From the NCBI GenBank assembly GCA_963969365.1, contig OZ017749.1, positions 248,001-312,000 on the forward strand: 64,000 nt of DNA, in the 5' to 3' direction. Below the pieces are notes generated by a model that had not been told where the DNA came from, ran no database searches, and saw nothing but the letters and a program-made list of their open reading frames with translations. A program made the translations under genes and the position numbers. The stretch comes from Asterochloris sp. CNOR1. Lineage: Eukaryota > Chlorophyta > Trebouxiophyceae > Trebouxiales > Trebouxiaceae. Below are positions 3,095-62,900 of this stretch, piece by piece (positions within the stretch are counted from its first letter, which is position 1; each line of letters starts with the position of its first letter).

Positions 3095-6000
3095 ATGCAA
3101 GCCCATTGGCATCAGCATAGTACGGCATCTGCCAGAGGCTCTTTGCTGACAAGCCATGCCAGGCAATGCATGCTGCGGCAGCCCAGATGCCATACCAGGC
3201 AACCCCATTCAGAGACATCCAGAACACATTGTGCTGCCTCAGTCACACAGCAAGCTCCTCCAACCATCAAACAGGCATCAGGCCACCAGTCGCACGAGAC
3301 GGATGTTGTTGTCATTGGCTCCGGCATAGGAGGTCTCTGCTGTGCAGCCATGCTAGCCAAGTATGGCTTGCAGGTGAGGCGTCTATGGTGACTGACAGGA
3401 GTCTGGCTAAGCATGCCTTGGACACATTAGACCTCTTGGCCTGCAGGTCACTGTGTGCGAAAGCCACGATATCCCAGGCGGGGCAGCTCATGCCTGGGTC
3501 CAGGTGCGAGGTCTGCATGGCAGGCATCTGCTACTGACTGTGTGAGCCGCCTGCAAGCTGCAGCTGCTTAGCAAGGGCTGAGACAAATGGCACAAGACAA
3601 GGCAAGGCCAAGGAGCAGAGGCTTGCCTTGGGTCGTAGCAGCAATCTGTGCCTTAACACAAAGAACTCCCACAGCATGCACAGGCGAATCCCCAGATCCA
3701 CAACTTCCTGCAGCTCTGCTCTGCATCATCTGCACCATGTTCGCTTCCTACTTGCCTCAGCATCCTGTCAGCACCTTACTTTGCAAGCAGAGCACCATCC
3801 CAGCACCTTCCCCGCTATCAGAGGGTGCAGACTTTGGTCCCTGTGTGTGCGTGGAGCAGGATGCTCTAAGCACGTGGCCTGCTGCAGGATGGCTTCCACT
3901 TCGAATCAGGCCCCAGTCTCTACTCTGGCATGGCCAGCACAGGGCGCTCCGCCAACCCGCTGGCGCATGTGCTCCAGGCCATTGACGAGGTGCGTCACGC
4001 AACAGCGCACAGGGCTGTGCACAACAGTGCACTTCAAGGGGATGTGGGCCCTCCAGGTGCATATTTAAGGGCAACATTGCTGTGCAGCTTGCATGGCTGC
4101 CTGGAGCAGTGCAGGCAAGGGTCCCCGTGCCTCTTATGTGGATGGCAGGAATGGACATCAGCATGGTCAGCTGTGCAACTAGTTGTCAATGACAGTGCGT
4201 GCTAATACCATCTCTATGGCCAGTTGGGACCCAGATCTGGATCAATCACTTTGTTGCCTGTTGTCCCCCTCAGAAGTGGAATACACATGGTTTTCCATCG
4301 ATGCCAGTGGCCCCTTTCGAGCTTGCAGCAAGCGTCTTTTGAATGGGAGGAGTGATCATTGATGCAGTTATCCTTGGATGCGACCAGATCTCATGCTGTT
4401 TAATTGCTGCCTGCAGCCCCTGGACCTTATTCAATACGACCGCTGGAATGTGATCCTGCCAGAGGGCGAGTTTCTGACCAAGGTCAGCAGCGCTCCCTTC
4501 ACTTGCGTGCTAGTGGCAGCTACTGCTGCACAACTGCAGGGGCCTCTTGTTTGCCGTTTGCTGGGCCAGGCTCAAGCATCTGCTGCATGTGCTGATCAGC
4601 AGAAACAAGCGTCATTGGGCCATGGCCGTTGGTAAGCTCACAGACACATGCAGCTTGCAAGCTTGTGCATAGGATGCAATGTAGCCTGGCACCATGCAGA
4701 GCGCAAGCACGTGCTGCAGGCTTGCTACTTCTATGGCTTGCACCATGCACAGTGCATGGCGCCGTGGCCCTGCCGAGCTGCATGTCTCTTTACCCTAAGC
4801 AGCTTGCAAGGTAGTGCCCGCATCCGTCCATCACTGTCATTTGACGCCTCCCCCAGGTTGGGAAGGACGCCATGTTTGAGGTCTTGCGCCAGGTCAGCCC
4901 TGACCGCGGGGTCAAGGACTGGGCTGAGCTGCAGCGCATGATGGAGCCACTGGCCAAGGCGGCCGGCGCGCTGCCACCCACAGCCATCCGCTTGGACCCG
5001 GGGGTGGCGGTGACCGCACTGGGCCGCTACCTGCCGCACCTGCTGAGCAGCGGGGCGGATGCCTCCAAGCTGGTGGGGCCTTTTTCGAAGGTACGTGGGG
5101 GACTTCTCGGACAGCGAATGGGTCCCCAAAGTCTGGGGACTGTGGCTTTTGCACATCAAGTCAGTGCACATCAAGACGGAACCAGCGGGCTGCAGCTGCC
5201 TTTGCTTTGAAGCAGAACAAGCAACAGCTCGCAACCTGCTGCACCTGCTGAGCAGCGGGGCGGATGCGTCCAAGCTGGCGGGGCCTTTGTCGAAGGTACG
5301 CTGGGGATCTCAATGCCATGCTAGGGTCTGGGGCTTGTACACAGCCTCAGTGCAGTCCAGGTAGCCAGCAGAGTGCAGCTGCTTTTGCCCTGAAGCAGCC
5401 CCAAGCAATCCGCACCTCTGGTGTCTGTAGGTGATAGAAGGGAAGATCACAGACCCCTTTGTGCGCAACTGGCTTGACCTGCTGTGCTTCCTGCTGTCGG
5501 GCCTCCCTGCCAATGGCACTATCGCAGCAGAGGTGAGTGCCTGGGGGGTAGCCTGCCAGTATCGCCTGCAGGGCATGCCCTGTCGCATGAACACGCAGTG
5601 CTTTTCAACTCTGATCGCTCTGTGCTGGACTCAGCCACAGTACAAGCCACCCCCCAATCTGGCCTCAGAGAGGAAGTACGCAGTACCTCTTGTGGCACGT
5701 GATCCCTGCGGGTGCTTGGTGGCATACACATGGCTGGACATGTCTGCACTCCCTGAAGGAGCACCCTTCTTGCTCTGCAGTTGCTTGGTGGCACATGTCT
5801 GAGCGTGTCTGCACTCCCTGAGGGAGCACCCTTCTTGCTCTGCAGTGGCCTGGTGGCACATGCCTGGGCATGTCTGCACTCCCTGAAGGAGCACCCTGCT
5901 TGCTCTGCAGGTGGCCTTCATGTTTGCTGAGTGGTACAAGCCCAACAGCTGCCTGGAGTTCCCGCGTGGTGGCAGCCAGGCCATGGTGAACGCCCTGGTG

Positions 6001-9000
6001 AGGTCCGTGCTGCATGCTGTGCTCTATTCCCATAAGAAACAAATAATTGGGTGCTTGTTCCTGTTTTTCACAGGGCAACGCTCAAGCAGGAGAGGTACAC
6101 CCTGCTCTGTATGTGTCCTAACCTGCAAGCAGAAGAGCGTTCTGATGCGGTGCCATGCCTGCATTTGTGCCCTGGTGGCTGCCACCTAATGGCCTCTTGC
6201 ATCGTATGGAAGAGGAAAGCAGGAATAACATGCATTCCCAATGGGAGACAAACCAGGGCGGAGCACCTGCTGTCACTGGCATGTCGAGCTGATAACATAC
6301 TTGACGTCTAGTTGTTGCTGAGAGGAAGGGGCTGCAGTCTCATGTCATGCTGTGTCCTGCTGCGTCGGCAATGCTCCTGCATGCTTTATAATCTGTGCCA
6401 ATATGGTGGGGACCTCAGCACAGGAAATTTCTTTGCACTGCCTGATAACACCTTCTCTTACGTGCAAAGCACCTCCTTGCTTAGTGTGGGAATGATAGAG
6501 TTGGGTGCAGCACAGCTGCCATCCTGCTAGGCACTCAGCGACGCCTGAGTTCTGGTGCTGACGGTCATCGATGGCTTTGTGCAGGGGCGTGAAGAAGCAT
6601 GGGGGTAAGATGCTGCTGAAGGCCCATGTCGACCAGGTCACCTTTGACGGCAAGCGAGCGACGGGGGTCAGGCTCAAGAATGGCGCCACGATCAGGGCCA
6701 GGAAGAACGTCGTCAGCAATGCCAGCATGTGGGACACCCTACCCCTCCTGCCCAGCCACATGGTCCCAGCCAGCATGCAGCAGCAGGCAGACACGACACC
6801 CCAGAACCGCAGCTTCATGCACCTGCATCTGGGCTTTGATGCCACAGGTGGGGCACGCAAACACTGCTTTCATTGCTGCTGCCCACTTCGGCTGCGCCTG
6901 GGCTTCATGCGACTGCTGAGGGGTGCAAGCACTGCTTTCAGTGCTGTCGCCTGCTCTAACTGCGCCTGGGTTCTGGTGCCATGGGCGAGGGTTGCAAGCA
7001 CTGCCTGCCGTGCCCCAGGACATCACAAGAGAGTCATCTAGAGAAGCTACTGGCTGTTGTAGTCAGCGCCTTCATAGCAGGTGCGCCTCCTGCACAAGGA
7101 CTGCCATGGCTGGGCAGGAGGCCTGGCAGACCACAGCAGCACCACCTTTCATTCCTGTTGCATGCACAGACTGCACCTGGGCTTTGATGCCTCAGGTGAG
7201 GGGTACGCAAAGTTTGTGGCTGTGCCTCACTGTACCATTTGCAGAGCAACCTGGTGCTGCTCCCTGCCATGACTGCACGCTGCGCCCCCCACCTCAAGCA
7301 CGTGAGCATGAAAGCCATCTGCTGCCTGGTGCTGCTCAGACTACATGCCTCATATCTCATGCATGTAGTGGTTGTTGTGGCAGGAGGCATCTGCATGGAC
7401 TTCAATAGCTCGACTACTAAGTAGTGACTGTGCGCATGCCTCACAGCCACTTCCCCTTTGCTGCAGGCCCTGACAGAAGCAGGCATTGCACGCACACAAT
7501 GCTGCTCTCCTTGTGGCTGCAGTGCCACTGCAGCGTATGTTGTATGCGCGGCCGGTTCTGAGGTCACGTCTCTCTGCCTGCAGGCCTGCAGGACCCTGGG
7601 CTGCACCACATTGTGGTCAACAGCTGGGACCACGGCGTGGACGCGGAGCAGAACGTGGTGCTGATCAGCATTGCCTCTGCCATCGACCCCAGTCTGGCTC
7701 CCAGGGGCAAGCATGTCTTGCACGCCTACCTGCCAGCCACGGAGCCCTTCCACCTCTGGGAGAACCTGCAGCGCGGCAGCCCAGAGTACCTGCAGCTGAA
7801 GGAGGAGCGCAGTCAGGTGAGCAGCTGCGGCGGCTCCACTGATGAAGTGCTTGTGCAGCTTGGCAGTGTGGAGCACCCTGGCAGTGGGATTCACCGTGGT
7901 AGAACATGCTGCGGGGCAGCCCTGAGTGCTTGACACTGAAAGGCGTGCTTGAAACAGAGATGGAGCATGGTCAGGTGAGCAGCTGCGGTGGTGCAGCTCT
8001 GTTCCTCCTTTCTTGCGATGCCCGGCAATGTGGCGCAGCCTGGCCGTAGATTGCACCTGTGGGCTGCACTCAGCGCAGCATTCCCGAGTACCTTGAAGGG
8101 GAAAGAGGAGCGCAGTAAGGCGAGCAGCCGCGGTGCCTCAGCCTTGCATGTGTGCGCAACCTGGCAATGTCTGGTCTCGTGGCAGCGCAATGCACCTGTG
8201 CGTGACGCTGCAGCGCGGCACCCCTGCATACCTAAATTCGAGAGAGGAGCACAGCCAGGTGAGCAGCTGCATGGTGCAGCAGAAATCCCTGTAGACCTCG
8301 CAATGTGGCAATGCAAGGCACCCTGGTAGTGTGGTGCCTGAGGCTCCTAACTTCCAGCATTGAGGGTGGCGGCAGATGGCTGTACTTTCCTGGTGGGACG
8401 TCAGCATTGAAATCGTGATGCCTGTATTCCCTGGCCCTGCACAGCACTGCTGCATGCCCAGGCTTACATGTTGCTCAGACGTGTCGCAGTTTGCCACGCG
8501 CTTGATGACTCTTCAGATGATGCGATGCTCTCCCTAGGTACTGCAAGGACCAGCACAAAGTTGCCATCAGTGCCCCATGCCAAGGCCTTGCTGGCTGAGT
8601 TCTATGGACACGGTTTGCAGGTGCTCTGGGCTGCAGTGGAAAAGGTCATTCCTGACATTAGGAGCAGGACTGAGATTGAGATGGTGAGGTGCTGAACCTG
8701 AAGATGCACGTGTCGTGGGTGACGCGCTGCTGCATGTGATGGCTGCTTTCATCTGCAGTGAGGGACCTTGTTATCTCATCACGATGCATTTCATTGTGTT
8801 CAAAACACCTGAAACTCGAAGATATCACACACCTTGCCAGACACCACACTGGAGACCTTTGTGTTGCCATTTCATAGCCCCGGAGGTGCCAAAACCTTTT
8901 GCGCTTGGTGGAATATACTGCATAGTGGGGTGCTTACCCTCTTGTTCTGTGTTCTGCACGCGATGTCACAGCATGCGCTCTTTCCAGGCACTGCCTGCAA

Positions 9001-9985
9001 CCCCACACTGGCCCCTGCAATGCATCAGCTGCAGTCTAGTTACAGTACCTCCGGCAAGCCATGTGCCGCCTGCTCCGCAGAGCTCCTGGAGCAAGGGTTG
9101 CTGACACCCACGCCCACAGAAGGCACCCTGGGCTTACAACAGCTTTGTGTACAACAAAGTGCAGACGCTGAGGCACTGCGTTGCCCTGCTGCTGCAGGTG
9201 GGCACGCCGCTTACTCACAAGCACTTCCTCAGGCGGCATCGTGGCACGTATGGTGGGTCTGCCTGTCAGCTAGTCGCTCAGCAGAAGCATGCATGCTTTG
9301 GTTGGGAGGCAAGACGGTTTCAAAGCTGCCTCTGGGCGGCTCAGCACCCATGCATGCTGTGGCCATTGGGCATGATGCACTTAAAGCTGGCTTTATGCTG
9401 CACAGCCCCCCTGCATGCAGTGGCTATTAGGCGACATGCACTGACAGGAGGGTCTGGCCACACCCACCTGGTTGCACCTATCAGGGCTCCGCCCTGGTTG
9501 CTTCTCAGCAGCCACAAGCAGTTGCTGCACCCCGCACAGCCTGCTGCCCTGTTGTCTGCCTACTAGCCAGTGAAGCTGAATGTGCCGTCCCAGACCACCA
9601 TGGGCTCAAGCCTCATCCGTGCAATGCAGGGCCAGGCATTGTGGCTGGTGAGGGCACGTTTCCCTTTCAGGGAACCTCTATACCTGGCCTCATGTGCTGT
9701 GGCGACAGCACCTTCCCAGGTGAGGCCTTGGAAAGAGCTGGTTCTGTGTTTGGGCGCAAGATAAGGTGGTTTTGGGGCGTTGCCGTGTGGCAAGGCATTG
9801 GAGTTTGGGTCCAATATACTTTTTGCAAGGCCGCCTGCTTGCATGTTGGGTTCTGTTCTCCGAAGGGCGCCTGTCTGCTTGCAGGTATTGGTCTGCCAGC
9901 AGTCGCAGCCTCTGGCGCAATAACAGCTAACAGCATGGTGCCTATCTGGGACCATTTGCGGATGCTGGATAGCATCAAGGCCTAG
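3095..9985 (+). CDS. CRTISO-like FAD-dependent oxidoreductase (plastid, At1g57770 type)
   Basis: Thirteen exons join in phase to about 578 residues: 3095-3373, 3447-3503, 3888-3989, 4417-4482, 4857-5090, 5431-5532, 5911-6002, 6585-6847, 7584-7816, 8621-8683, 9198-9252, 9630-9719, 9885-9985. The FAD-binding dinucleotide motif VVVIGSGIGGL is near residue 70 and is followed by PGGAAHAW. Other family marks are FAEWYKP, SNASMWDTL, HLHLGFDA, HVLHAYLP, GTPLTH and, near the end, CGDSTFPG plus GLPAVAASGAI. These fit the CRTISO-like branch of the carotenoid isomerase/desaturase family better than true prolycopene isomerase. The substrate of this branch is not established. The first 50 residues are rich in S, T, R, H and Q and could be a plastid transit peptide; the ATG at 3095 was chosen for that reason. 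Several introns carry copies of exon edges. Confidence 0.92.
5037..5299 (+). repeat. Donor-side exon echo in CRTISO-like intron
   Basis: About 58 bases at 5037-5094, the end of exon 5 plus its GTACG donor, recur at 5242-5299 with only a few differences, 205 bases downstream inside the intron. The copy keeps the donor (boundary 5295). Confidence 0.9.
5716..5910 (+). repeat. 65-bp tandem repeat, each unit ending in a splice acceptor
   Basis: Three tandem units lie directly before exon 7. Each ends in TGCTCTGCAG, at 5780, 5845 and 5910, an exact 65-base period. Only the last acceptor is needed for the predicted protein. Confidence 0.9.
6813..7198 (+). repeat. Donor-side exon echoes after CRTISO-like exon 8
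   Basis: The exon end encoding HLHLGFDA, with its donor at 6848, recurs with boundary 7195|GTGAG, 348 bases downstream. Weaker partial copies lie near 6884-6912 and 6956-6985. Confidence 0.8.
7770..8273 (+). repeat. Four-copy donor-side exon echo after CRTISO-like exon 9
   Basis: The exon end (QRGSPEYLQLKEERSQ) and the following GTGAGCAGCTGC recur with boundaries near 7974, 8120 and 8260, about 140-158 bases apart. The copies degrade unevenly; the last one still shows the donor. Confidence 0.85.
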
Positions 9986-10347
9986 CCTCCACCCACACAA
10001 TGACAGTTTGATGTAGTCTGCGTTCATCCATTGATTAATGAGTGCTTGCCTCACACCATGCTTGACCAGCTCACTTAAAGGAGCTTTTTGTACCATGTAC
10101 TCTTCCAACACAGATATGTGATGTTTTGCCAGCACTTCAGTTTGTGTCCTCATACTGACACTGCTTTCAGTGTGATTGGCTGAAGCCACAGACAACATGT
10201 GGGTGCACTGGTGGACAACAAAGGGGAAATTCCACATGAAGGCCCTGGGGAATACGACAAGCTTTGTGCTGAAACATGTGTGATGAGGGGCTGGCCATTG
10301 CAGCAACCCATTTGTCAAGGGGGCTGAGCAAATCTGAGAAGCAGACT
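9986..10347. other. Convergent intergenic region
   Basis: This 362-base gap holds the 3' ends of the CRTISO-like gene (plus strand) and the GT90 gene (minus strand). I see no coding frame, and neither a clear TGTAA polyadenylation signal of the chlorophyte type nor AATAAA. Confidence 0.6.
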
Positions 10348-13886: not shown

Positions 13887-16800
13887 ATGAAGTTTGGCAA
13901 GAGGCTGGGCTCCGAGGCCGCACGCAGGTCAGGGCGCATTGACAGTGATGAGTGTGTGATGAGTGAGTGCCAGCCCTTCACCCACCAAACCAGATCCTTG
14001 ATGTCATCTCAATTTGTGCCTTGGCCCATGCAGATGGCGTCCCTTTTACATGGACTACAAGGCAGTGAAGCGGGCAATCCAGATTGATGTCAGGGCTAAG
14101 GGTGAGTTGCTGCCTCTGAATTGCATAGAGGCAGCAAGACCACACCGCTGCTGCCCACATCCTGCCATGGGCAGCCTGTGCCAGGCACATGGCAGGAGGC
14201 ACTTGTGGCTGCCTGCCTCACACCTTGTTCAGGCCGCTCGTCAAGTATGTGGCCGCTAGACAGGGCGATTTCCTGCCTCCCAGCGCTCCACCCTCGTGCA
14301 GATGCAATGGGGACCAGCTTCGATGCCGCCTTGGGGCGCGAGCTGCAGCGCATAAACGCCTTCTTCTTGGAGCAGGAGAGGCGTGCCGAGGTGAGGCCAG
14401 GGATGAAGTCTTATCTGACAGGCCTGGCGCATGGCAGTTGCGCAGCAGGCAGTCGCCAGGCCCCAAGCATCTTGTCTGCTAGCAGCCGATCAAGGACTGA
14501 AGCAAAAGGATCAGGATAAGGCTTGGGCTTTGTGGACGGTCCCAGTAGTCTGGGGAGGCAACGCCACCCTGGAACTGGGCACATTGGTGCAGAACTCTAG
14601 TGTGGACAGTAGCACAACAGCTGCTGAGAGGTGCATGAGGCAAGTGGAAGTGGTGGCACCATCAATTGCTTGGACAGCAGCACAGCAGCTTGCTGGGGCA
14701 GGAGGTCATGCTTGTGCTTCGGCGAGCGGTGGTATTCCCATGCAGCAGCACCCTCCCATTGATCTGACAGCAGACGACTAGGGCAGATGGTGTGGCTTGC
14801 TTTGCAGGCCATCCTGGGCAGCCTTCAGGGGGGCTCCCCCTCAGCCACGGGGCTGGCCCGTTGCAGGGCTGAGCTAATGGACCTGCGCAAGTTTGTGGTG
14901 CTCAACTACATTGCAGTCATCAAGGCGGCCAAGAAGCGCAACAGGCACCTCAAGGTGGGGGCTGGCTCTCTCTGTGCTTCTCTTGTGGCTGGCTGAGGTA
15001 TTGAGCTTGCGTTCAAGGATGGGTGACTGGGATGTTGCCCAAGCTGACATGCTGCAAAGAAGGAAGCTGAGGTGGGACTGCTGCTATGCTGTCAGCGCTT
15101 CAGGGCTGGAGCCCTGCTTGCTTGGCCGCTGGGCTTCCCTGCATCGAAGGAGTTCTGGCAAAGAGGTGGCACCTGTGGCCACGGGAGCCTGGTCATGCTC
15201 GCCCTGCAGGCCTCTTTTCCAGTCTTGTGCACTGCTGGTGCCAGGGCAGGTATGCTTTAGATGTCGACTGCCTTGCTTGCTCTGATTTGAGCAGCAGCGA
15301 CACAGTGCTGGCTGCATGGGCATGAGGATGACTGCAAGCTGTTCACCCAGCAGGGCTCTCACAGTGCACGGCCTGCGTGCAGGCTGCCTGCGGCACAGAG
15401 GCCTCGTCCTTCTCCGCAACAGATGTCCTGAGCTTGCAGCACTTCTTCACCAGCCCTAAGCTGGCACAAATGTCCACCACGGCGGAAGTCCTGGCGTCGG
15501 TGAGTGCTGGCTCTGTAGCTTGGCCCATGAGCTCATGCAATTCGAGGCCCGGCCAGCCCAGACGTCTGTGGCCCTGCCTGGGATTGTGTAGGCGTGTTGC
15601 TGGTCATGAAACCCTAAGCTGCGCGCGCTTGCTGCTGCGACACCGGCCAGCTCAGGCATCATTGCAGATAACTGCTGCAGCGCTGTTGGCTCTTGCTGTG
15701 CGGCTCTGCTCACTGCTGTGGTGCAGCACTGCCTCGTCCCGCCTGCAGCCATGCTGAGCTGCGCTCAAACCAAGCGAAACCCTGGACCCTAATCCTGTGG
15801 TATATGCAGGAGGCGGGCCTGCAGGGGGCTCAGCCGTCGGCAGACACTTTAAGGGACTACGAGTGCGCCATCTGCCTGAGCCTGCTGCACAGCCCGGTGG
15901 TGCTGACCTGTGCCCACCGCTTCTGCTGGGGCTGCCTGGTGACGCACTGCGCAACCATCCTCCGGGGGCGTGGCGCAGAGCCTCCAGTGACAGGTGTGTC
16001 CCATAGGGTCTAGGGTTTGTAGTATGAGAGACCTGGGGCAGCACTGCTGGCTTGATCTGTGCATGTCCAACCGTGTCTGCTGTGGCTGCCAGTCTATGCA
16101 CTGCGTGGCCACTCTGCAGCTGCGTGGCACAGATACTTCAGTGACGGGTACATGACGTAGTGGACACCATGAGCAGCACTGCCGGCATGATCTGTGGATG
16201 TGCAGCCTGTGTTTGCAAGGGCTGCCAGGTCGTGCATTGCACATCCATCTGTGGCCTGCCCAGCAGCAGTGTTTTGGGGAGCCTTCAGTGACAGGTACAT
16301 CACGTAGTGGACACCTCAGACAGCACTGCCGGCTGATTCATGGTTGTGCAACCTGTATCTGCTGGGACTGCCAGGTCCTGCACCACGCAGCCACCCTGCA
16401 ACAGCGCGACGCTGAGCCGCTGTTGACCAGTGGCCAGATGTTGGCTGATGTGACCGACCCATGCCTCCAGCCCGGCAGTTGTTGTGTGGGGCCTGTCACT
16501 ATTTTGCGTGGGGTTTGGGTTCTGGGGCGGCCTTGGCTTCATTGCTTTTTCTGGCGCCTGGGGACTGCTGGAGATGCAGCTGATCTGGGCAGCCGCTTAG
16601 TCTGCTGCAGCAGCAGGGTTGGTACAATAAAGTAGCCAGGGCTGACAATGTGGTGTTCTGAGGTCAACATTCCTGTTGCGCATTGAGACCTGATTCTGAC
16701 ACTGCCCCACCCCAGGAGGTGCTAGACTTGAACATCAAAGTAATCAGCCCCACTGCTGCCCTGCAGATTCCAGCATTGCCAGAGCCAGACGGGCACTGCT

Positions 16801-18489: not shown

Positions 18490-21400
18490 ATGCTATCGCG
18501 TGGCAAACCACCCCTGCCCCCCTCTGCAAGCAGATCACCACGGGTGGTGGTGGCCTCAGCAGTGGCAGCTGAGGCCCCGCTGCTGCCACCCCAGCGGCCA
18601 GAACACATGGTAAGCCCTCTTGCCAGTCTGTGGCCATTCCAGCAGCTGAAGCAGGCCTTACCTCTGCCTCCTATTGTGCATTCTTGATGCAAACCCTCAG
18701 CAGATACTTACTTGCATCTTGGCCCTCCGCATCGCTGCCTCAGCCGCTTGTTCTGCCCAAAGTCAGCTGCAGCAGTGCCGCAAGCACCAGGGCAGGGCCC
18801 TAAGTGACCATGAGCACCCTGCCATCGAATGGACTGCTAGCCATGCTTCATTTTGAATCGTGCTTATGCAGGAGCGCCTGACAGTGGTGCTCGACCTGGA
18901 CGGCACCCTCATCAGCAGCTTCACACCCCGCCGGGCCCCCAGACTGCCCCCCGACATGACCAGCTACATTGTCGGCCGCGGGGGCAAGCTCAACCCTGGG
19001 GGAGTGTTTGTGGTGGAGCGCCCCGGGCTACAAGAGTTCTTTGACCGCCTCAGCAGCACAGCAGGTGATTTTGCTACTGTCAGTCTTGCAGGCCTGACAG
19101 TTTGGCCGCCGATGGACTCATTGGACTGCCTCTGTTTGCTGCTGATGAACTGCAAGCACCTCTATTGCATGCATGCTGCAGAGGTGCTCTGCTGGCAAGC
19201 CAACAACGCTATCCCTGCAAAAGCCCTAAAGTTTCCCTGTTGTGCCGGCCTGCCTGCAGAGGTGGTGCTCTTCACAGCTGGCCTCGAGGACTACGCTGCC
19301 CCCATTTGCAATGCCCTGGACGACAACTACAGGTGGGGCTCCCTGTCACATCTGCCAAGACCCCTGTGAGGGTAGGTGAGGGAGAGCTAATGCCTTGGTG
19401 TAGCACCGGCAGTGCTTCTGCTTAGCACTGAGTCCATGTGTCGTGTGCAGCCTGTCTGTTGAGCTGTCCAGCTTGTCAAACAAGTGCTTCCAGCAAGTGT
19501 GCCCTCCCTCCCCGCTTGAGCTTCCTGCTTGGCAGCCCCTGCCAGCGCATCGCACCAGCTCACACTTCACCTGGACAGTCCTGCTCCAAGTGAGAATGCC
19601 AGCCTGCTTGGCAAGACTCTTCGTGATGGTATCTGGCGCTGCCCCCTGCAAGCAGTGCCCACCCTCCACCTGCAGGCACCACCTGATGGGACTGCTCTCC
19701 TGCTGGGTTGACCTCCTGGAACACATCTGCACTGCTGGTCTCTCCTAGAGGGCCAATCCTCCACCCACCTGCAGGCACAGGGGACTGCTTCCAGGGGCGT
19801 CTGCTGGTCTCTCCAAGAGTGCTAACCCTCCACCCACCTGCAGGGACTGCTTCCAGGGGAGTCTGCTGGTCTCTCCAAGAGTGCTAACCCTCCACCCACC
19901 TGCAGGGACTGCTTCCAGGGGCGCCGCCTGTACCGCCCCGCCACCACCGCTGCCGAGATCTACCCCTGCATCAAAGACCTGAGCAGGCTCGGCCGCGACC
20001 TGCGCCGGACAGTCCTCGTGGACGACACGCCCTTTGCCTTCCTCAATCAGCCAGACAACGGGATTCCCATACTGCAGTTCAGGTGGGTGCCCAATCGTCC
20101 GAGGTAGTACATTGCAACAACGCAGTTTATCAGAGGCTCCTCTAGTGTCTGCTGCATACTGAGATACATGACAGTCCCCGGTAGAGTACATGACAATCGG
20201 TGCACTATACTCCTTGAGCAATGCTTGTCTGCGACATGCCCTGCTTCACTATACTCCATGACTGTCTTGAAATCTTTATTTCCTGTAAGTGCCACTGCAG
20301 CAGTGATGCTGCGGTCTGCAGAAGCGGCACAACACAGCATGTTCTGCATTTTCGAACCATGCAGCCACTGCTGCAGCCTCCAACTCTGTAAATGTCGTGC
20401 TGCAGGGGTGATGTAGATGACCGCATGCTGAGCGAGGCCATCCTGCCCCTGCTAGACTCCCTCAAGGATGCGCCTGATGTGCGGCCTGTCCTGCGCAAGC
20501 GCTTTAACATGCCGCGGTGAGCTCCACTGCACTTTGCATGCGCCTGGGTGGCTTGGCCTTCAGCTTGTGCTCCAAGGGAACTCCCTGAGCAATGAGCCTG
20601 GTGTGCAGCCTGTCCTGCGCAAGCGCTTTGACATGGTGCTGTGAGTGTTGCTGCACTTCGTTTGAGGCTTGTGCAAAGATGCCCTGGGGCATGGTCAAGG
20701 CCTCACCTCAGATGTATGCACTAAACTAGTCCTCCTGCTTTCTTGGGCTGGCAGGCCCTGTGGCCCAGACACTGTGGGCAGCAGGCTTTGTCGGACTGGC
20801 TGCAACGCGCGTTGTACCCACCCCGCACTTTGCCTGCAGGTGGTTCAGAGCCCAGGGCGTGCCTGTGCCCGTGACAGACCCTGCAACTGCAGTGGGGCAG
20901 GGGTCCTTCCTTCAGACCAAGCGCCAGCTGCAGCTGGCGGCCCAGCCAGCGGCCAAGCTGCCAGCGCACGCCGGGCACCAGCAGGAGGCTGGCGCTGAGC
21001 ACAGCGCCACGCTGCTCCTGTGCGACTTTGACAAGACGCTGACGGACTGCGATGCTGGTGAGGGGGTGTGCTGGGAGGAGGGGCCTGTTTGGCAGCCCAG
21101 CTGGGCTGTGCGCAGCACTGGGGTCCCCTGCTGCTTGGCCCCTGTGCAGCACAGCCTTGTGGCATGCTGCTGCTGTGCAAGGATGACAGGACGCTGGCAG
21201 ACTGCGTTGCTGGTGAGAGGGCATGCTGGGAGGAGGGGCCTGTTTGGCAGCCCAGCTGGGCTGTGCGCAGCACTGGGGTCCCCTGCTGCTTGGCCCCTGT
21301 GCAGCACAGCCTTGTGGCATGCTGCTGCTGTGCAAGGATGACAGGACGCTGGCAGACTGCGTTGCTGGTGAGAGGGCATGCTGGGAGGAGGGGCCTGTTT

Positions 21401-48600: not shown

Positions 48601-51600
48601 TGGCTCCAGCACCTTTGGGGTGTGGGGCTGATGGCAGCGTTGCAAGCAGCAAGCCTCAACTGGCTGCTACCTGACAGCAGTCATACCCTGGCAGAGCAAG
48701 GGCCTATGCCTCACCTGCCCCCCTGCAGCCTGTAACTGCTTCCAGCGCTGCTCTTCGGCATACTGCTCCTGGGCGCGCTGCTGGTGGGAGTGCAGCCGGC
48801 GAGCGTGCTCTTGGCTGCAGGTGTCCATCAGATCCCTGATGTGCTGGGCCTGCAGTGCAGGGTCTCAGTGCTGAGCGGCGTCAGGCTGGCTGCAGGCCTC
48901 TGTCAGAGAGCCGATGCGCTGGCCTGCTGCACAGGTGGACAACGCTGAGCCTTGGAGTTTGTGCTGAGGTTCAGCTTGATGTGGTGACAGAACTGCCTGC
49001 AGGAGGAACAGCGCCCCCAGAAAGCTGTGCTGCAGCCATCTGTCCAAAAAGGGTACATCCCTGTTCCTTGTAACCTCGTGCTGTGCGGCTCACAAAAGCC
49101 TGGTGGCCCTGCTCTTGACACTTGATGCTGCAGCCAGCGCGTCAAAGCTGGCTGGCTCCCTTGCATCAGGCAGCAGTGCACATGCAGTGTCCAGCAGCTG
49201 ATGTATGTCTTTAACTGCAAACAGTTTGCGGGCATGTCAAGATGCTGGCACATGTAGGGTGCCTTGCTTGCATGGGACACCTATGACTGTGGGATTTACC
49301 AGCGGCGCGCCCTGCTTTGCATGCACTGTGAATTGCAGGCACATGTGTGCAGGATTGGAGTGCGGCTGCCTGAAATGAATCACGTTTGAATGCAGGCCCC
49401 TGTGTGCGGAATTGGGGTGCCCCTTGTTTGCATGATGGCAGGCACACATGTGTGGATCACCTTTGACTGCAGGCACATGTGTACGGGATCCAGCTGCTCA
49501 GCGCAGGCAGCCCCATCAGCTCGCAGCTGCAGCAGGTGCTTGACTGCCTCCACCACGCTACCAGAGGGCGAGGCAGGTGACTGCACCACAGATGACAGAA
49601 GCACCGCCATCTGCTGCACCTGCTTCTCTACCTGCAGTTGACCAGGCAGGCTTAAGCGTATGGGACCCCGGGCTCAAGCTGGCTGCTGATCAGGATTGCC
49701 CAGCAGACACAGGTAGTGCCTGGATGGCACAATGTGGCACGATGCCCAGCTGCAGAGCAATGACAACCTCTGGACCTTCCTTGACAAGCAAGAATGCAGT
49801 GCCAGCCGGCCCAGAGCACAGATACTTCTGCAGCAGCTGCTAGGCCCCTGTATGTTCCTGAAGCTGGTTGAAAAGCAGCTCTTGAACTGGGTATGGACAC
49901 CTTGTCAGTGTATGGGCAGTGACTCCGTGCATGTGGCAGTCACCTCCAGAAAGAGGCTATTCCACACGCCGTGAGGATCCTTCACGGTCATGTCTTTCAG
50001 CAGAGCTGACGCCTTGCGATATCCACTGATCACCTGCAGCCAGCTGGCACAGCCTTTACAGAGGCCCTGGCATGTCGGGCCCACCCCAATACCAGAGACA
50101 GCATGGCTTCTGTAAGGCCCAGCACCACTGAATGCACAGGCAGCACAGTACACCTGCCTTGGCACCTAGCAAGTAGGCGCTCATCGTCTCTGCAGACGGC
50201 AAACACAGCACACGTTCGGCAGGGAGAATGCTGCACACGTTTCTGCCCGGCAGAGTCCGGCCACTATCAAGGAGCCCAGCTGCAGGGAGTAGGGCACTCA
50301 CATGGCACTGAATGCACAGCACAGCAGCATATACATTCAGCGGTGTCATGAAACAGTGCCTCCCTCCATCATTGCACCAGTGAGCTGCCCTGGCAGTCTG
50401 ACCATTGGTCAGTGCACTAGGACAAGCTTGGGGAGGGACACCAAGCCTGGGACCAGGAGACAAAGGGACATGATTAGATTGACAGATGCATGAAGCAGCT
50501 GCACAAAGCAGTGCTTGCAGCGCCATGCACCTGGTCGTACTCCTGCCGCTGCATCTGCTGGCGCATGCGCATGGGCAGGGCAAACAGAGACTCGTAGCGC
50601 TTCAGCAGGCTGAGCACGCTCTTGATGCGCTCGCTCATGGTGGCCCGCTCTAGCATGGCTCCCAGAGCCTTATTGGCCTCCAGCCGCACCTGTGAGGCAG
50701 CATCACAGCTTCAGGTTTTTTATGTGGGGACCACACGGCTGGCTGCAGCTGGGTCACAGTCCAGCCACAACCAGTATGACAGCGTTGCAGCTTTGATGGT
50801 GTGAGGCCATCTGCAGGGCCTTTGCACTGGCTCCCATGGGCTTGTCAGTGTCCAGGCTCCAGTCCTGAGGGACAACAGGTTGCTCCTTTTGAGGCAACGC
50901 CTGCCATCCACCACGTAAGCCAGAACCACCTGAGCGTCATTGACTGGAGCTTGCACGGGAGAGGCTGTGCAGCTTGCATGTCTGCATCAGCTCTGTTTCA
51001 GGCCACACACATAGCTCCCTGTATGCGAATCTCTGCAGCCTCACATTGCATTGCACACTTACTGCGCTGAGCTGGAGTTGTGTCTCCCTGAGCTGGCCCG
51101 GCACACAGGAATGAGAGCGAAAAGCGGCCAAGTTGTCAAACCCCTCGTTGTAGGTCAAGCTGAGAAGTGCTAACCTCCACCAGGGCTGTCCCCATGTCAG
51201 CTGTGCTTGCGCCGTTGGCGCCGTCTGCACCGTCACCCTCGGCCTTGCGCAGGCGGATGTGGATGTCGTCAATGGTGGTCTTGCAGCTGATGAAGCGCTC
51301 AAAGTTCTCTTTCACCTGCACCGAGGGGACATGCCTGGCTGACCACGGTCCTCAACTGGCCTCTGCATTCCGGCAGCCCAACATGCAGACTGGCACCCAT
51401 GTGCCTTCAAGACTGGCGTGACCCAGCTCACCAATGCCTTCAGCTGGCCAGTCCGCTCTGACAGCTCCATGTGCAGGTTGGCACAGCCACTCCGCAGGTC
51501 GTCCACCTCTGTGTCACCGTGAACAAGTGCCAAGTACAGCACTGCGTCAAAGCTGCTGCTGGTGGGCAGGATCTGCGCAGCAGCAGAGAAGAGTGACGGC

Positions 51601-53441: not shown

Positions 53442-53903
53442 CTGCCTGGGCAGCGCCCTGATTTATGAGACCACTTCTTCAATGCTGGCCAAATTGGCCT
53501 CAGCTGAGGCCAGTCAGTCAAGATCTGCAGATCGGGTACAGCATGAAAGGGGAGGGAGGCAAGGCCAGGAACAGTCAAAGCTGCATGACTGCTGACATGG
53601 AAACTTAGGTGAGGCAGAGCACAAGTAAACCGGAATTGGGCCGGAACTCTTCTGGTGCATGCAGAAAGCAAGTCGCACCTTCTCACTAAACAGAGAATTG
53701 GGGGCTGCGAACGCCTGCTCGTCCCTGTAACGTCGCTCGGTTCTCTATTGGTGAGATCGGCACAAACATCGGTCAGGGAGAGAGGAGCACTTTTCGCCCA
53801 CGGCGTGGCAGTTCGGCTGGACTTTGTCAAGAGCCCATCAGGAAGGAGCGTTCATTGCCCCCGCCCTGATACAGGGAAGCAGCGCACACTCAGCAGCTGG
53901 CGC
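53442..53903. other. Divergent intergenic region between SEC5 and NADK
   Basis: About 460 bases separate the putative SEC5 start (minus) from the NADK start (plus), which suggests a shared promoter region. One minus-strand frame stays open across it, but the translation is not recognisable. Confidence 0.5.
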
Positions 53904-56900
53904 ATGAGCGGTTGTCTGGACGAGAGGGCCAATGCTGCAGTCGAAAGTGAGTTTGCCGCAGCAGAGATTACTCCCACCAGGTGCTAGGATTGTTCACTTT
54001 CACAGACTGTGCGCAGCCCCAGCATGGGCAGTGGTCAAGCTCCTCTCCCTTGTTGTGAGCAGCACAAAGCTTGATGGGGTCGGGAGTGTAGCGGGCTGGT
54101 TGTCTTTGCAGAGAGGGCCCCACGGCCAGAGTGAGATGAGGTTGCATGCAAGGGGTGCGGCTGTATGGTCGGCCACCCTTGTCAGCTGCGCCTGCGTCCA
54201 GACAGCCGCCGCAGGCAGGCAGCAGCAGCCTGCAGTGGCCAGCTGAGGCGGCCCACCTGGCAGCCTTGACGCAAGCTTGTCGTGCTAGGACCTCCAACAC
54301 CATCAACAAGGTTGCAGCCAGGAGTCTTGAGCAGCAGGCACCTGCTGCATGGGCAGCTACCCACGCAGATTGCCATGCGACGCTCAGCACTCGCATCTGA
54401 AGTGCTCACCCCCTGCCCCTGGCTGCAGGCTTCAGAGCCATTCTGCAAAACGCTGCAGACGGAGAGGAGGCTGCTCGCCAGGAGGCGTTCAGGTGGAGGC
54501 AGGATGCAGCAGACCTGCAGCGGCAGGTTAAGGAGCTGCAGCAGAAGTGAGCATGTGAAGCGGCCTTATAAGGGGGTTGTGACGGCTGGGCACCTTACAT
54601 GCTGGCTTGGTGGCGCTGCTGCGTCAGGCACAGCAGCTGCCTGCTGTGCTGGCAACGCCCTACGCGGCAGTGGTCAGCGCCCAGGCATGCTTGAGATGAG
54701 AGTCGGCAGCTTGTGCACACGCCTGTGCCCTTTCCCCACGCATGCTCAGTGCCCCCCAAAGCGCTTGCAGCTGTACCTCTGGGTGATCTTGCACAGGCAT
54801 GAACAGCTGGAGGCTGCCCAGGCTAGCTCATTGCAAGGCACAGAACAGGCATGCCCTCTGCTGTGCCTTGGAACGTGTAGGTGCTCTGGGGTGCATGGCC
54901 AGGCTTCCTGCCACATGCTGACTGCTGCACCCGTGGCCAGCCTTGCAGTGCCTGCATGCTGCACTGCAGGTGCAAGCAGATCCTGCATATGTTGGGGTTT
55001 TTGGCCAGAGCACCAGGCCTTTCACTGTGGACTGGTGTTGCTGTAGCCAGCCTTTCAGTGGTTGCCTGGTGTGCTGCAGGTACGAGCAGCAGGTCAAACG
55101 GGCTGACATGTTCAGCAAGCTTGTGTCCAATGTCAGTGGCAAGCTGGATGCAGCGCACACCATCGACAGGGGCCACATCACTACAATCACTGAGGCTGAT
55201 GAGACCAGCTCCCCACACCAAGTAGATGTGAACCTGGCGACGGCAGAGATGGCCTCTGCGCAGATGGCCCAGCAAGCACCAGCAGGTGGGCTTCTGTGCC
55301 ACTCGTAAAGTCTCACACACCTGCACGAAGCTGTCACAGCAGCTGACACCCCAGCAGGCGCAGGCAAGCCTGGGAATGCACTATGTCTTGGCTGCTCTGG
55401 GGCAGGCATCTCGGCAGGCAGGAGCACCCATTGTTGGGGGTTGTCCTTTTCTCAGCCTGGTTTTTCGGGTGGCAGCACCAGGAACCGCCTCCAGACAGCC
55501 AGCCCAGCAGGCGCTGGTAGCTGGGGCCCAGGACCTCAGTGGGGCCTTCACTGGGGCTCTGCATTCGTGCAAGTTGGGGGCATGTGCAGGAAGCTGCCTC
55601 AGCAGCTGCTCTTCACAGTGTCTCTGGGAGGGCCCGCCGCAGCGCCACCAGCCTGGGGCACACTGCTCGCCATCTGCACTGCTTGTCAGGGCCATCGCGG
55701 CCGCTCTTCAGCTCGCAACAGGGTGGCGCATGCGAACCGCTGCACTGTCAGTGTCCCTGTGCTGCATGAAGCCGGGCGCTCAGCCCCTTCACTGTCTGGT
55801 GCAGATGGACCGGTGCTGCCCAAGGTGCGGGTGTCATCTCAAATGGAGCCCAACAAGGGCAGCCTGCCCGCCTCTAGGCAGAACAGTCTGCCAGACCTGG
55901 GCCTGCCTCGGATGACGCGCAAGCGCAGCTCCAACCTGCGCCCAGGAGCGAGGACAGGGGCCAGGGGCAGCCTGGTGAGACAAATGCCGCAGCTGTGGCT
56001 GCAGCTGTGGCAAGGCCGCCACAGCTCATATTGTGTCTTCCCTGCATGCTGCAAGCACACCAGGAGCGACGCTGCCACAGCTGGCGGTGGCAGCGCCACT
56101 CAGGTGCTCTGCACGCTCATTGTCTGCTCTGCTGTGCACTCAGCTTCCGGATGCCCGTGGGACCAACACTATTCAGCCTTAGCTCCTTAGAGGCACGTGC
56201 GTGCAGACCTGACCACTCCTACTGTTCCCCCTTGCAGATGGAGTCTGCCAGCAGTGGGAGCCTCAAAAGGCAGGGCTCCCCGGTGCGGACAACAGTCGGC
56301 AGCCTGGCATCCTGGCTCATGGCATACACCATGATGCAGGTGGGCTGTGGGCATGGCAGTGTGGCCTCGGTGGCTGCCAGTCTTACACGAGGCCCTGAAT
56401 GCTGTGCAGTTGTTACCTTGTTTGTTACCTTGTCAGCTGCAGATCAGTGCTGTGCAATCAGCAGGTGTTGCAGTGGGCCTGAGGATCCTGAGATCGGCTC
56501 TGCTGCAGTGTGCTGAACAGGAGCTCGAGGGCTGTGGTGAGGGTCACTGGTGCACTGATGTGCCTCCCATGCCCCCTGCAGGACAACCCGAAGCAAAGGG
56601 CGGCCGCTCAGCAAATCAACGGATGGTCAGACAATCCTGAGAATGTTGACATCTCTGCAGTATCAGTGCTGGATGATGATGGTGCCTCAGGAGTGGGGGC
56701 AGCTGCAGCAGCCGCTGTCTCTGTGGCTCTTGCCCGCAGCTGGGCATCTGCAGCGTCCCAGAAGCAGGTGATTACTCAACAAGAGACCACTGCTGGTGCC
56801 AGGGGGCAAGGTCTAGCTGCTGTTTCTGCTTCCAGGTCTGCCCTGGTGCCTCTCCAGTGCTGGCAACATAGGCAAAGCCACTGGCAGCCATGTCAGCAGA

Positions 56901-59900
56901 AGCCAGCTCTGCGCCAGGTGCCAGGGGTTGTTGCTGGCGCCCCTTCTCTTGGCACTCTCACTGCGGCCCAGCTGTTGGGGTGTAGCCGCACGGTCCTGCT
57001 GTGATTGGATGCCTGTGCACTGACAGCCAATTTTCGTGCCACAGATTCAGGTGAGAGCAGCGCGGCCATGCCACTGGCTGACGGGCATGAATGTGGGAGG
57101 ACCATGGGTGGCAGTCTGCATGTCAACCACTGACAGAAGCTATAGTATCATTCCTTCCTGTTTGCAGCCCCCTGCCATGCCATGCGCATTGCGCTGTGCA
57201 CCCCACCTGCATGACGTTGGCAATCAGAGGGGCACATCTTGGAGGGGCAGCCTGTGCTGCTGGCTGCCCTGACTGGTAGTTGCTGGCACTTGCACTGAAA
57301 TCCTCCCTGCAGGCGGCAATGGTGGAGCGCACTACCAGTGGCAGCTTGAAACCTGGCAGGGCAGGCTTCAGGCTGGTGGCGGCGGTGTCCAACACAGACC
57401 TTGCCCGGCTCGCCAAGGTGGGTCGTGTTCTGCAAGTGCTGCTGACCTGCTGTGCTGGTGATTCGTGTCAGGACACTTCTCCCACCTCATTGAAGGCAGC
57501 TTGAGCAGTGGCAGGAGCACTGTGTGCAGGTCTCGACTGGCAGCAGGTGCCCAGCACCTGCTGCCTCCTCCTCCTGCAGGTGCTGACGCGCAGCCTGAAG
57601 TGCTAGGCTCTAAACTCTGCATATCAGGAGCTGCTGCCTGCTGTGCTCGCAAGCTGGCCACCTGTCTGAAATATCCATGGCACACGCAGAGGGTAGAATG
57701 TCTTGATTGGTGCATAGCACCAACCCTGGTTCAGTAGAGGGATTCTGCGTTTTTCACATTGGTTCAGGCACAGAGTCTCTCAGCAACATAGTTGCCTCAG
57801 TCCTCCCCTTTGTCAGCCTGCCCGCATCCATTCACTGGATGTTGGAGCACGTCCCTGCCACCGCGCGCAATCCACGATTGTGCTCAACAACCAGGGCAGC
57901 AGGGCTCACCAACTCCTCATCCTTCCCATCTCACCTCGTCCCCATGTCGCGCTGCAGGATGCGACACCGAAGGGCGGCAGCACGCCCCACAAGGTGCCCT
58001 CAACTCCCCCCTTCACCAGCCCACGGGAGGAGGCAGTTCACCCCCAGCACAGCACCAGCCTCAATTCGCAGCCGTCTGGCTCCATTGTGTCAGGCAGCAC
58101 GCCCTTTGCCAGCCTCTCCGGGTGCCCCTTCCCGGACGGGGACATGTCCTCCGCCTGCACCACCATCCATGAGCAGGTCTCGGACAAGGGCCCCAGAGGA
58201 GGCAGCAGCCAGGGCAGCCTGGGGGTGGGGACTGAGCGCGCCCCACCCGGCCACGGCGCAGGGACTGAGCGGGCCCCGTTCAGCCAGGGCGGCACCCCCT
58301 CGTCCATCCCATCGTCTGCCAGCTTCCAGACGGCTGGAAGCCTGCCCATCCTGGCGGAGTCCTCGCAGGTGTGCAGCAGCCGCTGGGCGGAGCAGAGCCG
58401 CTGTGCACTGCACCTGCAGCTGTGCAAAGCACCTCCTGCTTCTTTCTTTGAAGTAGTCAACTCAGCACTGGAGACAGCACACACAGAGTGCGAGGGCTTC
58501 TGTTTGCTTTGTATGAAGTTGTCACTTTACCACTTTGGGCAGCACACTCAAAAGTGCGGCTGGAGGGCTCCTATCTGATGAGCACTGTGCAAACCAGTGC
58601 AGGCCCTGTTGCTGCCAGTGACAGCTGCATGAGCCCTTGCCCTTGTGCCTGTAGATCATGCACAGGCGAGCTGAGTTTGCCGCTGGCACCGGCACTTTGC
58701 CCCCAGCAGGCAATGGGATTGCTCCCACCCGCATCAGCCCCATGCTGCCTCAGACTCAGATCCTGAAGGACACTCGGCACCGGCGGGACGCTTATGCTCG
58801 GGGAGTTGGGGACATCCCGCCCCCGCCGCCTAAGGTTGTGTTGGAGCCCACACTCAGCAGCGACTCGGCAGACTCACTGGTAAGCTTCGGAGAGCGCTGA
58901 GCTGTGTGTCCTGGCAGAACCCATCTGCCACTGTTCTCTGGGAGCTCTCGTTCAGAAGGAACTCGGCAGGCTTGCTGGGTTTGGTTGGAATCTGGCTGCG
59001 TATCTGGCCGCTGCACAGCCGCCTGTGCTGCTGGGTGCTTTGGGGCCTGCATTCTGCAGCACTTGCACGGGGCAAATAGTACTTTATCAAGCCGCTGTTA
59101 CTGCTTCATCTGTTACTGATCCATCTGGCAACATTCTGCAGCTCAGGGTTCAAAGCCTTGCTTGCTGCTCACAAGAGCTGCTTGCGCATGTCCCCTTGCC
59201 CTGCCGGCTGGCCAGGACGTCCCACGTGCCACGCAGTTGTGCAATGGGCAGGAGTTTGCAGACCCAGTCTCCTACCATTGCTCAGAGGTGTGGTCACTTG
59301 CCCTGCAGGCTGGCCAGGACGTCCAATGCAGCTGCATACTGCACACTACCTTGCAGACCTCATCTTCCACCGTGACTTGATCTCCCACCACTGCTCAGAG
59401 GTGTGGTCGCTTGCGCTGCAGGCCGGTCAGGACGGTTCCACACAGCTGCCCAATGGGCGCGACCTGGCAGACCCTGCAGCCAGTGGGCCCAGCGACCCTG
59501 CAGAGCCTGTGCCCCAACGGGAGCAGCCGCCTCCAGTGCAGTCCGTCGAGGCCGCCCGTGCGAGGTCCGCTGCGCTTCCTCCGGGGCGCACCGGCCTGCC
59601 CCACATCGAGTCCTTCAACACAGACGTGGTGCAGGAGAACCTGGAGAGGCACAGGAACCGGCGGCAGCAGCAGCAGCAGGAGGGCGGTCGAGCGCTGACC
59701 CACACAGGTGGGGGTTTGTGAGAGGCTGAGTGCTTGAGTCAGACCGCTTGTACTCAGTGGCCACTCAGTGCCTTCTGAGTGGTAGGGGCAGCACACTGCT
59801 GCACCATGAAGCCTTACAGGTTGGTTTTTGGTGCCCTGCATGTCCCCATCTGCAGCTGCACCATTCTGGCATAGGCCAGCATTCCATGCGCCGCGAATGA

Positions 59901-62900
59901 CCTGAGATGTAACTCCCCCATGCCCTGCAGGCTCCCACCTGCAGCTGCACTGGCTGAGCCGGCCACGCACTGTACTGGTAGTGGCCAAGCCCTCGCCAGA
60001 GGTGCTGGTGTCGTTGGTCAATGTGGTCTTCTGGTTGCTTCAGCGAGATACCACTGTCTACGTGGAGCCCAGCATCTTCCACAGGATGACTGAGGTGACT
60101 GCCTGCCTTCTTATCCTGCTGTGCTCTGGCCTGCTACCAGTGGCAGTGTCTGCCATAACAGGGCAGAGATGCTGGCTTCTTCAGCTGCTGCGCTCTACTC
60201 AATTGGTCTTTTGCAACCTTAAAGAGACAGGGTTAAATTTTCTGCCACAGGACAGCAGAGCTGACCATCTTTAGGTGCTGTGCTTTGCCAGCCACAGGCG
60301 GGCCACGGTGACTGCTTGCCTTCTGCTGCTGCTGCACATTGTGTACAGACAAAGGGCAAGTAAGATGGCTTTGCATCTCACAGGTTGACTGAGGCGACTA
60401 CCTACTTGATTGTGCTGTTCATGGCGACAGCAATAAGGGCTTGCTGTTCCTGGTTTACATGCGAACCAAGCTGCTGCGAGGTCTTGACAGCAGCAGGGCT
60501 CAACAATGGGGGATCTGCGCAAGCCTGACCCCTGCACCTCTCTCCTGCTGCAGAGCATCAAGGTCACGACAGTGGAAGAATACAGGACAGGCACAATGAT
60601 TGCCCGACACTGCACCTCTCTCCCGCTGCAGAGCATCAACTCAGGATGCTGCCAGGTCTCAGGACAGGTTGACCTGGTTCCTGACCCCTGCACCTCTCCC
60701 CTGCTTGCAGAGCATCAAGGTCAGGACAGCAGCAGGTGTCAAGCCGAGCAACCTTGTGTTGAGCACGAGTCCAGGACGCTACCAGGTCTCAGGACAGGTT
60801 GACCTGATTCCTGACCCCTGCATCTCTCCCCTGCTTGCAGAGCATCAAGGTCAGGACAGCGGCAGGTGTCAAGCCGGGGAACCTTGTGACGTGGCTGCCC
60901 GAGCCTGAGACGGGCGAGATACCCCGCCCCGTGGCGGACAGGCTGGACTGGGTGATCACTCTGGGCGGGGACGGCACAGTCTTGTGGACGTGCTCCATCC
61001 TGGGCAACGGGCCGGTGCCCCCACTGGTGCCCTTTGCCATGGGGTCGCTAGGGTTCATGACACCCTTCGCCATGGACCGCATGCAGAAGGTCCTCACGAA
61101 GGTGAGGCTGTTGCCCCTGCTGGCGCCGTTTGCCATGGGGTCGCTAGGGTTCATGACACCCTTCGCCATGGACCGCATGCAGCAGGTCCTCACGAAGGTG
61201 GGCTGGCTGCTCTGGGGGCATGTGAGGCTGTTGCCCCTGCTGGCGCCGTCTGGCATGGGTTCGCTGGGTGTCGTGACACCCTCTGCCATGACCTGCATGC
61301 AGGATGCCTCATGCAGCAATGGGCACCTGGCCAGGCCACCTATTCTGCAGATGGCACTGCCTGGTAGCAGTTGTCAAGCTAGCTTGGCCTGCTTGTGAAG
61401 CCTGGCCATGCCTGCGTAACATGTGCACTGACAGGCTGGTGCTGGTGGTGACTTGAGGGACCAGTTCCACTGCCTGCAGATCATGGACGGCGGGTTCTCT
61501 CTCATGCTGCGCCACAGACTGCACTGCAAAATTGAGCGAGCCGACAACACTGGCTACCTAGGAGGTGAGGGACCTGCACCAGGCTCTTTCAATGCAGACT
61601 GCATCCCAGCAGATGTCAAGCTGCTTCATTGAGCAGCCTGCTGTCTTACAGCACTGTCAGGACTCCAGAGTAGAAGTCATGCCTGCCATGCCCCCCCACG
61701 TCAAAGAAACCCTCTGTGAGGCCTAGGGACCTGGGCTCAGATGGCCCCTGCATTGCCAGAGGCACAGCACACCACTGGTGGCCACACGCCGTGTCTGCAT
61801 GCAGCAGGCTGCCCTGCTGTGGCGTCTGGCTCCATGTGGTACCTGCCTGCACCCTGCAGCCAGCCCATCATACTTTGTGCTGAGCACACGGTGTGTGCAT
61901 GCACCTCCTGCAGCCAACCTCCCATTCCTGTGCTCAACACTCACACCTCATGCATGCGCCTCTGGCAATCGGCTGTCTCCATTGATGCTTACACCTCATG
62001 CACCCCTCTTCTAGCCAGTTTTGTGCTCCTTCATCTGGGCGCACATCCTGGGCATGCGTCACGATTCCCCGGCGCACCCTGCTGACTCCCGGCCGCTGCC
62101 GTGTGTGCAGACGGTTTTGTGCCTGTTGCAGATGTCAACACCGAGCTCGACGAGCAGGTGGTGCTGAACGAGGTGGTCATTGACCGGGGTGTCTCCCCCT
62201 TCCTGTGTAACCTGGAGTGCTACTGCGACGGGAACTTTGTGACCCACGTGCAAGGTGATGGGCTGATTGTGGCGACCCCCACAGGGTCCACAGCCTACAA
62301 CCTGGCAGCAGGGGGTTCCATGGTACACCCCCAGGTGAGTCTGTCATGAGCAACTCAATGTCTGGCTGCAGTGGGATCCATGGTGGGGGAGCCTTGAGGG
62401 GCGCATGTGCTGTGCCCAGCCTGGTGCTCCGGCGCTGTGTTCAACGCTTGCTGAGCTCATGCTGAGCAAGGTGGCCTATGTGACAGCGGACGCTGCTTGG
62501 TGAGGCTGGTTTCTTGACAGGAGCCTACCTGGCTGCAGGTGCCAGGCGTCCTCTTCACCCCCATCAACCCCCACTCGCTGTCTTCACGGCCGTTGATCCT
62601 TCCAGAGTCCATCCAGATCCGTGTGCGGGTGAGCTCTCACTCCGCTGCCTGCTGCAGGAGCCACCCAGGCTGCCTGCTGCAGGAGCCACCCAGGCTGCCT
62701 GCCTTTCCTAGTCACAGCCACATGCATGTCTAGCAGCCTCTGCAGAGAGTATTTTGCCCCCAGCCTGCTGCTGCCCCGCTCCTGAGGCAGACAGGACGGC
62801 AGGGGCCTGGAAGTTAGCTGTGTGCCTGACAGACACAAGGTCCTGACTCTGTCTGCCTGCAACTGCCATTCACTGAGGAGGGTCGGCAGGGCCACAGTTC

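Follow-up and report, generated by a model that had tools for sequence, protein, structure and literature searches.

Gao and Lynch reportedly described, in 2009, internal gene duplication accompanied by intron change. In the AGGT model, tandem genomic duplication makes donor and acceptor contexts alike (PMC3443670). In Daphnia, direct repeats are reported for 100 of 617 established introns and for 55 of 90 that are new, the internal direct repeats of the new ones being ascribed to staggered breaks (PMC4202315). Introners are presented as copies of one element in many genes (PMC9860276). Here we analyzed a 64,000-nucleotide stretch of Asterochloris sp. CNOR1 (contig OZ017749.1, positions 248,001 to 312,000 of the forward strand; hereafter the window), in which segments spanning exon-intron junctions are copied into the adjoining introns. 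Frequent local tandem duplication, invisible in the protein as the exon-proximal splice site stays in use, is probably what lengthens introns here.

All counts refer to this one window, and its junctions are those of predicted gene models. The models were obtained with a purpose-made ab initio gene finder, hand correction and comparison with Pfam and PDB, and the territory judged reliable holds 8 genes with 68 introns. Self-BLAST of the window at E <= 1e-3 returned 28 pairs, all of them direct and none inverted, with 26 less than 2 kb apart and 2 farther. A more sensitive search (E <= 1, pairs up to 1.5 kb apart) gave 59 direct pairs of at least 30 bits, compared with a mean of 0.3 in 10 order-4 Markov controls, and a diagonal scan found 56 segments versus none in 4 order-3 controls. 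No inverted pair appeared at E <= 1 within 1.5 kb, short terminal repeats not having been searched for. The repeats group into 34 clusters, 23 of them in reliable gene-model territory, and the remaining 11 were omitted from the junction counts. A dispersed repeat family or introner was rejected for this window, since 26 of the 28 pairs lie within 2 kb; the preliminary description of this DNA had likewise taken the copies to be local rather than one dispersed family. An assembly artefact was rejected for nearly all arrays, given identities of 69% to 99%; the 25-base array at 62644-62702 is 100% identical. One of the only two distant direct pairs, 46818-46990 and 48921-49093 in the Sec5 region, aligns over 176 bases with 71% identity at a distance of 2.1 kb.

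With a minimum of 5 aligned bases required on either side, 17 of the 23 clusters contained a junction. These 10 donor and 7 acceptor arrays occupy 16 of the 68 introns (13 on the plus strand and 3 on the minus strand; Table 1), which bears out the preliminary claim of junction copies in at least a dozen introns on both strands. Their smallest periods range from 62 to 213 bases. The aligned exonic overhang is 23-92 bases at the 10 donors and 7-52 bases at the 7 acceptors; the 30-60 copied exon bases described before were thus roughly right for donors, with a wider spread. Duplication of the junction is seen directly when copies are set under one another, as in the arrays at 5911, 21008 and 60841. 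In the 155-base array (21008..21878), the first copies hardly differ in their intronic parts and the exonic part of the real copy is clearly unlike the decoys, which suggests an old junction-spanning duplication and then later expansion inside the intron.

Exon edges were also compared alone, using up to 50 exon bases without the splice motif and the 99th percentile of 1464 controls as the threshold. Above it, the adjoining intron echoed the donor edge in 14 of 62 cases and the acceptor edge in 8 of 60, and 11 donors and 5 acceptors exceeded all 1464 controls; far edges (1/72) and exon middles (1/42) hardly ever passed the threshold. The introns found in this way overlap the 16 array introns, the two sets not being identical. 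Shared splice consensus was rejected as the source of the echoes because exon bases alone still echo.

Table 1 Repeat clusters in reliable gene-model territory, with and without an exon-intron junction.
Feature	Coordinates	Strand	Details
Donor array	5025..5408	+	Exon end 5090, carotenoid isomerase-like gene; period 205; decoy donor after 5295
Acceptor array	5706..5917	+	Three 65-base copies; real acceptor before 5911
Donor array	6816..7211	+	Exon end 6847; decoy donor after 7195 outscores real donor
Donor array	7751..8280	+	Exon end 7816; decoys near 7974, 8119 (GT lost) and 8258
Donor array	15913..16418	+	Exon end 15993, SPX-RING gene; decoy scores poor
Acceptor array	19732..19923	+	Unit ~62; real acceptor before 19906; NIF phosphatase
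Donor duplication	20456..20658	+	Exon end 20516; period 124
Donor array	21008..21878	+	Exon end 21057; ~five 155-base units, later ones diverged
Acceptor echo	26828..27152	-	Exon start 26848; gene without Pfam match (26756-29503), ab initio only
Donor echo	28985..29212	-	Exon end 29174; gene 26756-29503; period 184; only 5 intronic bases aligned
Donor echo	49334..49489	-	Exon end 49461; Sec5
Acceptor echo	54920..55089	+	Before 55080; N-terminal part of NAD kinase gene, ab initio
Acceptor array	59195..59474	+	Before 59422; NAD kinase gene, ab initio exon
Acceptor echo	59832..59950	+	Before 59931
Donor echo	60072..60403	+	Exon end 60094
Acceptor array	60524..60888	+	Four acceptors: after 60553, 60631 and 60710; real one after 60840
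Donor array	61010..61311	+	Exon end 61101; second copy (donor after 61197) in frame, stop-free
No junction (counter-example)	9276..9442	+	Intron-internal duplication
No junction (counter-example)	39022..39317	+	Intron-internal duplication
No junction	21924..22039	+	29-base minisatellite within intron (corrected model)
No junction	62644..62702	+	25-base minisatellite beginning 16 bases into intron
No junction	27748-27919		Ends 6.5 bases short of a junction
No junction	52545-52934		Overlaps start of Sec5 model, not an intron

The copies leave decoy splice sites behind, as had been proposed: GT or AG is intact in 22 of the 29 decoys, a count raised from 20 when three decoy positions were re-set by eye. 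These decoys, which are the sites aligned at the score used and not a full list, lie 62-442 bases away from the real site, which 10 of the 29 equal or exceed in score (rounded scores). Splicing at 21 of the 22 intact decoys would cause a frameshift or bring in a stop, and only the decoy at 61197, with an in-frame insertion of 32 residues, would remain in frame and stop-free. The PDB alignment of NAD kinase is gap-free across the junction at donor 61101 when the extra copy is omitted, and that of the phosphatase crosses acceptor 19906 with just single-residue gaps nearby; donor 20516 is close to the end of the phosphatase alignment and gives weaker evidence. At these few junctions, the protein alignments are compatible with use of the outer copy. 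Because only one intact decoy stays in frame and the alignments pass the junctions without the copy, the exon-proximal site should be the one that most functional messages use. The extension through the NAD kinase decoy donor (61102-61197) would repeat a conserved stretch, and the gene finder picked it.

The introns have also grown, as the preliminary description had held: the median length was 592 bases in the 16 echo introns versus 299.5 in the others (p 2e-5), and with the arrays collapsed the median fell to 384 and the difference lost its significance (p 0.35). Cluster length beyond one unit, in spanning and other clusters together, came to 4484 bases compared with 26087 intron bases.

Local direct repeats, their overlap with modelled junctions and decoys with GT/AG intact would be expected if short DNA stretches, mostly of 60-210 bases, duplicated in tandem at a high rate, possibly by slippage, unequal exchange or break repair. 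A duplication across an exon-intron junction would give two copies of the splice site; were the copy adjoining the exon still used, the protein would be unchanged and the other copy would turn into intron. The intron would lengthen with an internal decoy site, repeated rounds would produce arrays, and exonic duplications would presumably be lost through selection. About a quarter of the introns carry such copies, seemingly tolerated since splicing requires no more than the outermost one. That cells choose the outer site is inferred, and so is whatever causes the overlap beyond geometry. Several points weigh against this account. Six of the 23 clusters hold no junction, and random placement gives 7-10 spanning clusters of 23 rather than 17, which means that something beyond plain tolerated duplication may act. 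In favour of the account, no cluster was wholly exonic (0/23), although about 12% of placements would be; with about 3 expected, this absence is weak evidence.

How far placement alone explains the overlap bears on a simpler explanation, in which uniform tandem duplications, with units long relative to introns, meet junctions by chance and the excess reflects sampling noise or imperfect models. In its favour is a simulation with constrained exons and detection limits, in which the expected overlap fraction was 0.37-0.42, so that most cases need no junction-seeking mechanism. In addition, genes do not attract significantly more clusters than expected (genic spans are touched by 29 of 34, versus 26.1 expected, P 0.31), the gene models were partly hand-corrected, and with a 10-base margin and the period as the unit the 13 observed spanning clusters exceeded the 8.3 expected with P = 0.03 only (6.2 expected, P 1e-3, with the aligned length). 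With the 5-base margin, on the other hand, 7.2 of 23 were expected when the unit was the aligned length (P 1e-5) and 9.2-9.8 when it was the period (P 6e-4 to 2e-3), and the observed 17 exceed what repeat density would give, the comparison that the preliminary description had proposed. When the 34 clusters were rotated relative to the junctions in the 68 introns, the mean was 8.8 and the highest value among 650 shifts was 16, short of the observed 17. Homology-supported exons taken by themselves retained 13 of 17 against 5.8 to 6.6 expected (P 2e-4 to 9e-4), and 9 of 11 recent arrays span a junction versus 4.7 expected (P 0.006). The simulation gave P values of 3e-4 to 2e-3 for 17/23 and 0.005-0.026 for the recent 9/11, by which detection bias from exon constraint was rejected as the sole source of the excess. 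These tests share data, and their P values are uncorrected for the number of tests. Geometry supplies about 40-60% of the junction overlap and leaves a 1.7- to 2.3-fold excess, which we hold to be likely but not settled because the tests overlap, cover one window and rest on models partly corrected by hand. Chance geometry as the whole explanation is unlikely in our judgement.

The same excess, present among recent clusters and left standing by simulated exon constraint and detection limits, would also follow if junctions were mutational hot spots that a transcription- or splicing-linked process, such as R-loops or break repair at exon edges, duplicates preferentially. Against such a process, the exonic overhangs vary widely (7-92 bases) with no fixed breakpoint relative to the splice site, the six clusters off junctions have to be accounted for, and the lack of significant genic enrichment speaks against a transcription-linked cause; we regard it as quite improbable. 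The broader proposition that such a process makes junctions in this lineage true duplication hot spots, so that introns grow mainly as their own edges are copied outward from the exon, is unlikely. Retention of decoys for a function, for instance as switches for regulated alternative splicing or nonsense-mediated decay, might be read from the intact GT/AG, from the decoys that match or outscore the real site and from the in-frame residues that 61197 would insert. Retention is, by a rough estimate, about equal to neutral decay at these identities, and the extension lengths are mixed modulo 3; we consider a functional role very improbable. Tolerated tandem duplication remains our favoured account, and the interpretation offered in the preliminary description is, as a whole, partly supported.

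The window has a G+C content of 57.8%, and its genes are intron-rich and lie on both strands, with trained splice signals resembling CAG|GTGAG at donors and CTGCAG|G at acceptors. Pfam matches at E <= 1e-3 were obtained for 7 of the 8 genes: an amine-oxidase-type gene, a RING gene whose SPX match falls just under its cutoff, a gene matching NIF and Put_Phosphatase, an AhpC-TSA peroxiredoxin, an SPX gene, Sec5 and NAD kinase. No such match was obtained for the eighth (26756-29503, minus strand), which is an ab initio model only. We take the first gene to be a carotenoid isomerase, and the AhpC-TSA gene is presumably a peroxiredoxin Q. PDB alignments were obtained for three genes, namely NAD kinase, the phosphatase and, weakly, the first gene (carotene desaturases). 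Hand corrections came after the repeats had been seen, and some relied on known plant carotenoid isomerase sequence. In counted territory, exons 8214-8258 and 28990-29004 were dropped as copies, the former, in array 7751..8280, having initially been taken for an exon by the gene finder; small exons at 6133-6149, 21901-21924 and 56740-56767 were dropped too, as were exons beyond the supported parts. Donors 6002, 9719 and 61101 were set by hand, 62132-62334 was merged into one exon, and the start of the first carotenoid isomerase exon was placed by eye. Mean intron length was 417 bases over the 77 introns modelled. Tetradesmus obliquus has a G+C content of 57 and a mean intron of 462 (PMC5966456), values near those of the window that identify nothing.

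Two uncounted clusters on the minus strand, 33989-34340 and 34581-34757, end near ab initio junctions (donor 34339 and acceptor 34655). Also on the minus strand are a stop-free run of 722 codons (29093-31261) without a Pfam match at E <= 0.01, an AP2-like stretch (35502-35981) under the Pfam cutoff (28.7 vs 33.3 bits) and a possible glycosyltransferase family 90 fragment (11690-12138), likewise under its cutoff (17.4 vs 24 bits). A Pfam scan of two frames of window positions 1-14998 gave weak Rossmann-type matches only, and scans of the window with Rfam at gathering thresholds and for transfer RNAs gave no matches.

Relatives of Sec5 and NAD kinase were not detected in the viral contigs searched, nor was Sec5 in the genome contigs searched. 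Contig JAIYDP010000129.1, from a Verrucomicrobiaceae pond metagenome-assembled genome, was the one hit of a U6 core pattern and carries an exact U6 snRNA core. Judged by its open frames, this contig looks like contamination from an unrelated eukaryote and does not serve as an algal comparator; it holds 5 near direct and no inverted pairs in 26.6 kb. The assembly containing it has no Sec5 match, and NAD kinase matches one open frame of 302 residues there with 33% identity.

If true genome-wide, the process would be a concrete, transposon-free route of intron lengthening. Near-identical tandem splice sites would be natural experiments in competition, making the exon-proximal choice rule of the spliceosome directly testable. 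Decoy copies can moreover be called exons by ab initio gene finders, as happened in this window, which is a warning for annotation.

Among the matches listed from open-licence literature, covering titles and abstract openings, none describes repeated echoing of junctions as a way in which introns grow. Introners resemble the window in changing intron content across many genes, but there one element recurs in many genes and here the pairs are local; similar introns at many unlinked sites were not seen in this window. Daphnia introns may also lengthen through local direct repeats, but their exon-derived repeats are 4-12 bases long, below the detection used here, whereas copies in the window carry junctions at far longer periods. 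The AGGT model shares local tandem duplication that includes splice-like sequence. It makes the two contexts alike, whereas here the resemblance of donor and acceptor contexts rose above the 99th percentile of controls in none of the 68 introns and the copies lie within one intron; intron birth of the AGGT type, which the preliminary description had mentioned, was therefore rejected. Internal gene duplication, in which intragenic segments with exonic and intronic sequence are reportedly duplicated, differs in that here existing introns grow with decoys (16/68), no new intron being shown, but its direct, local and intragenic mode of duplication is present in the window, where all near pairs are direct and most clusters span a junction.

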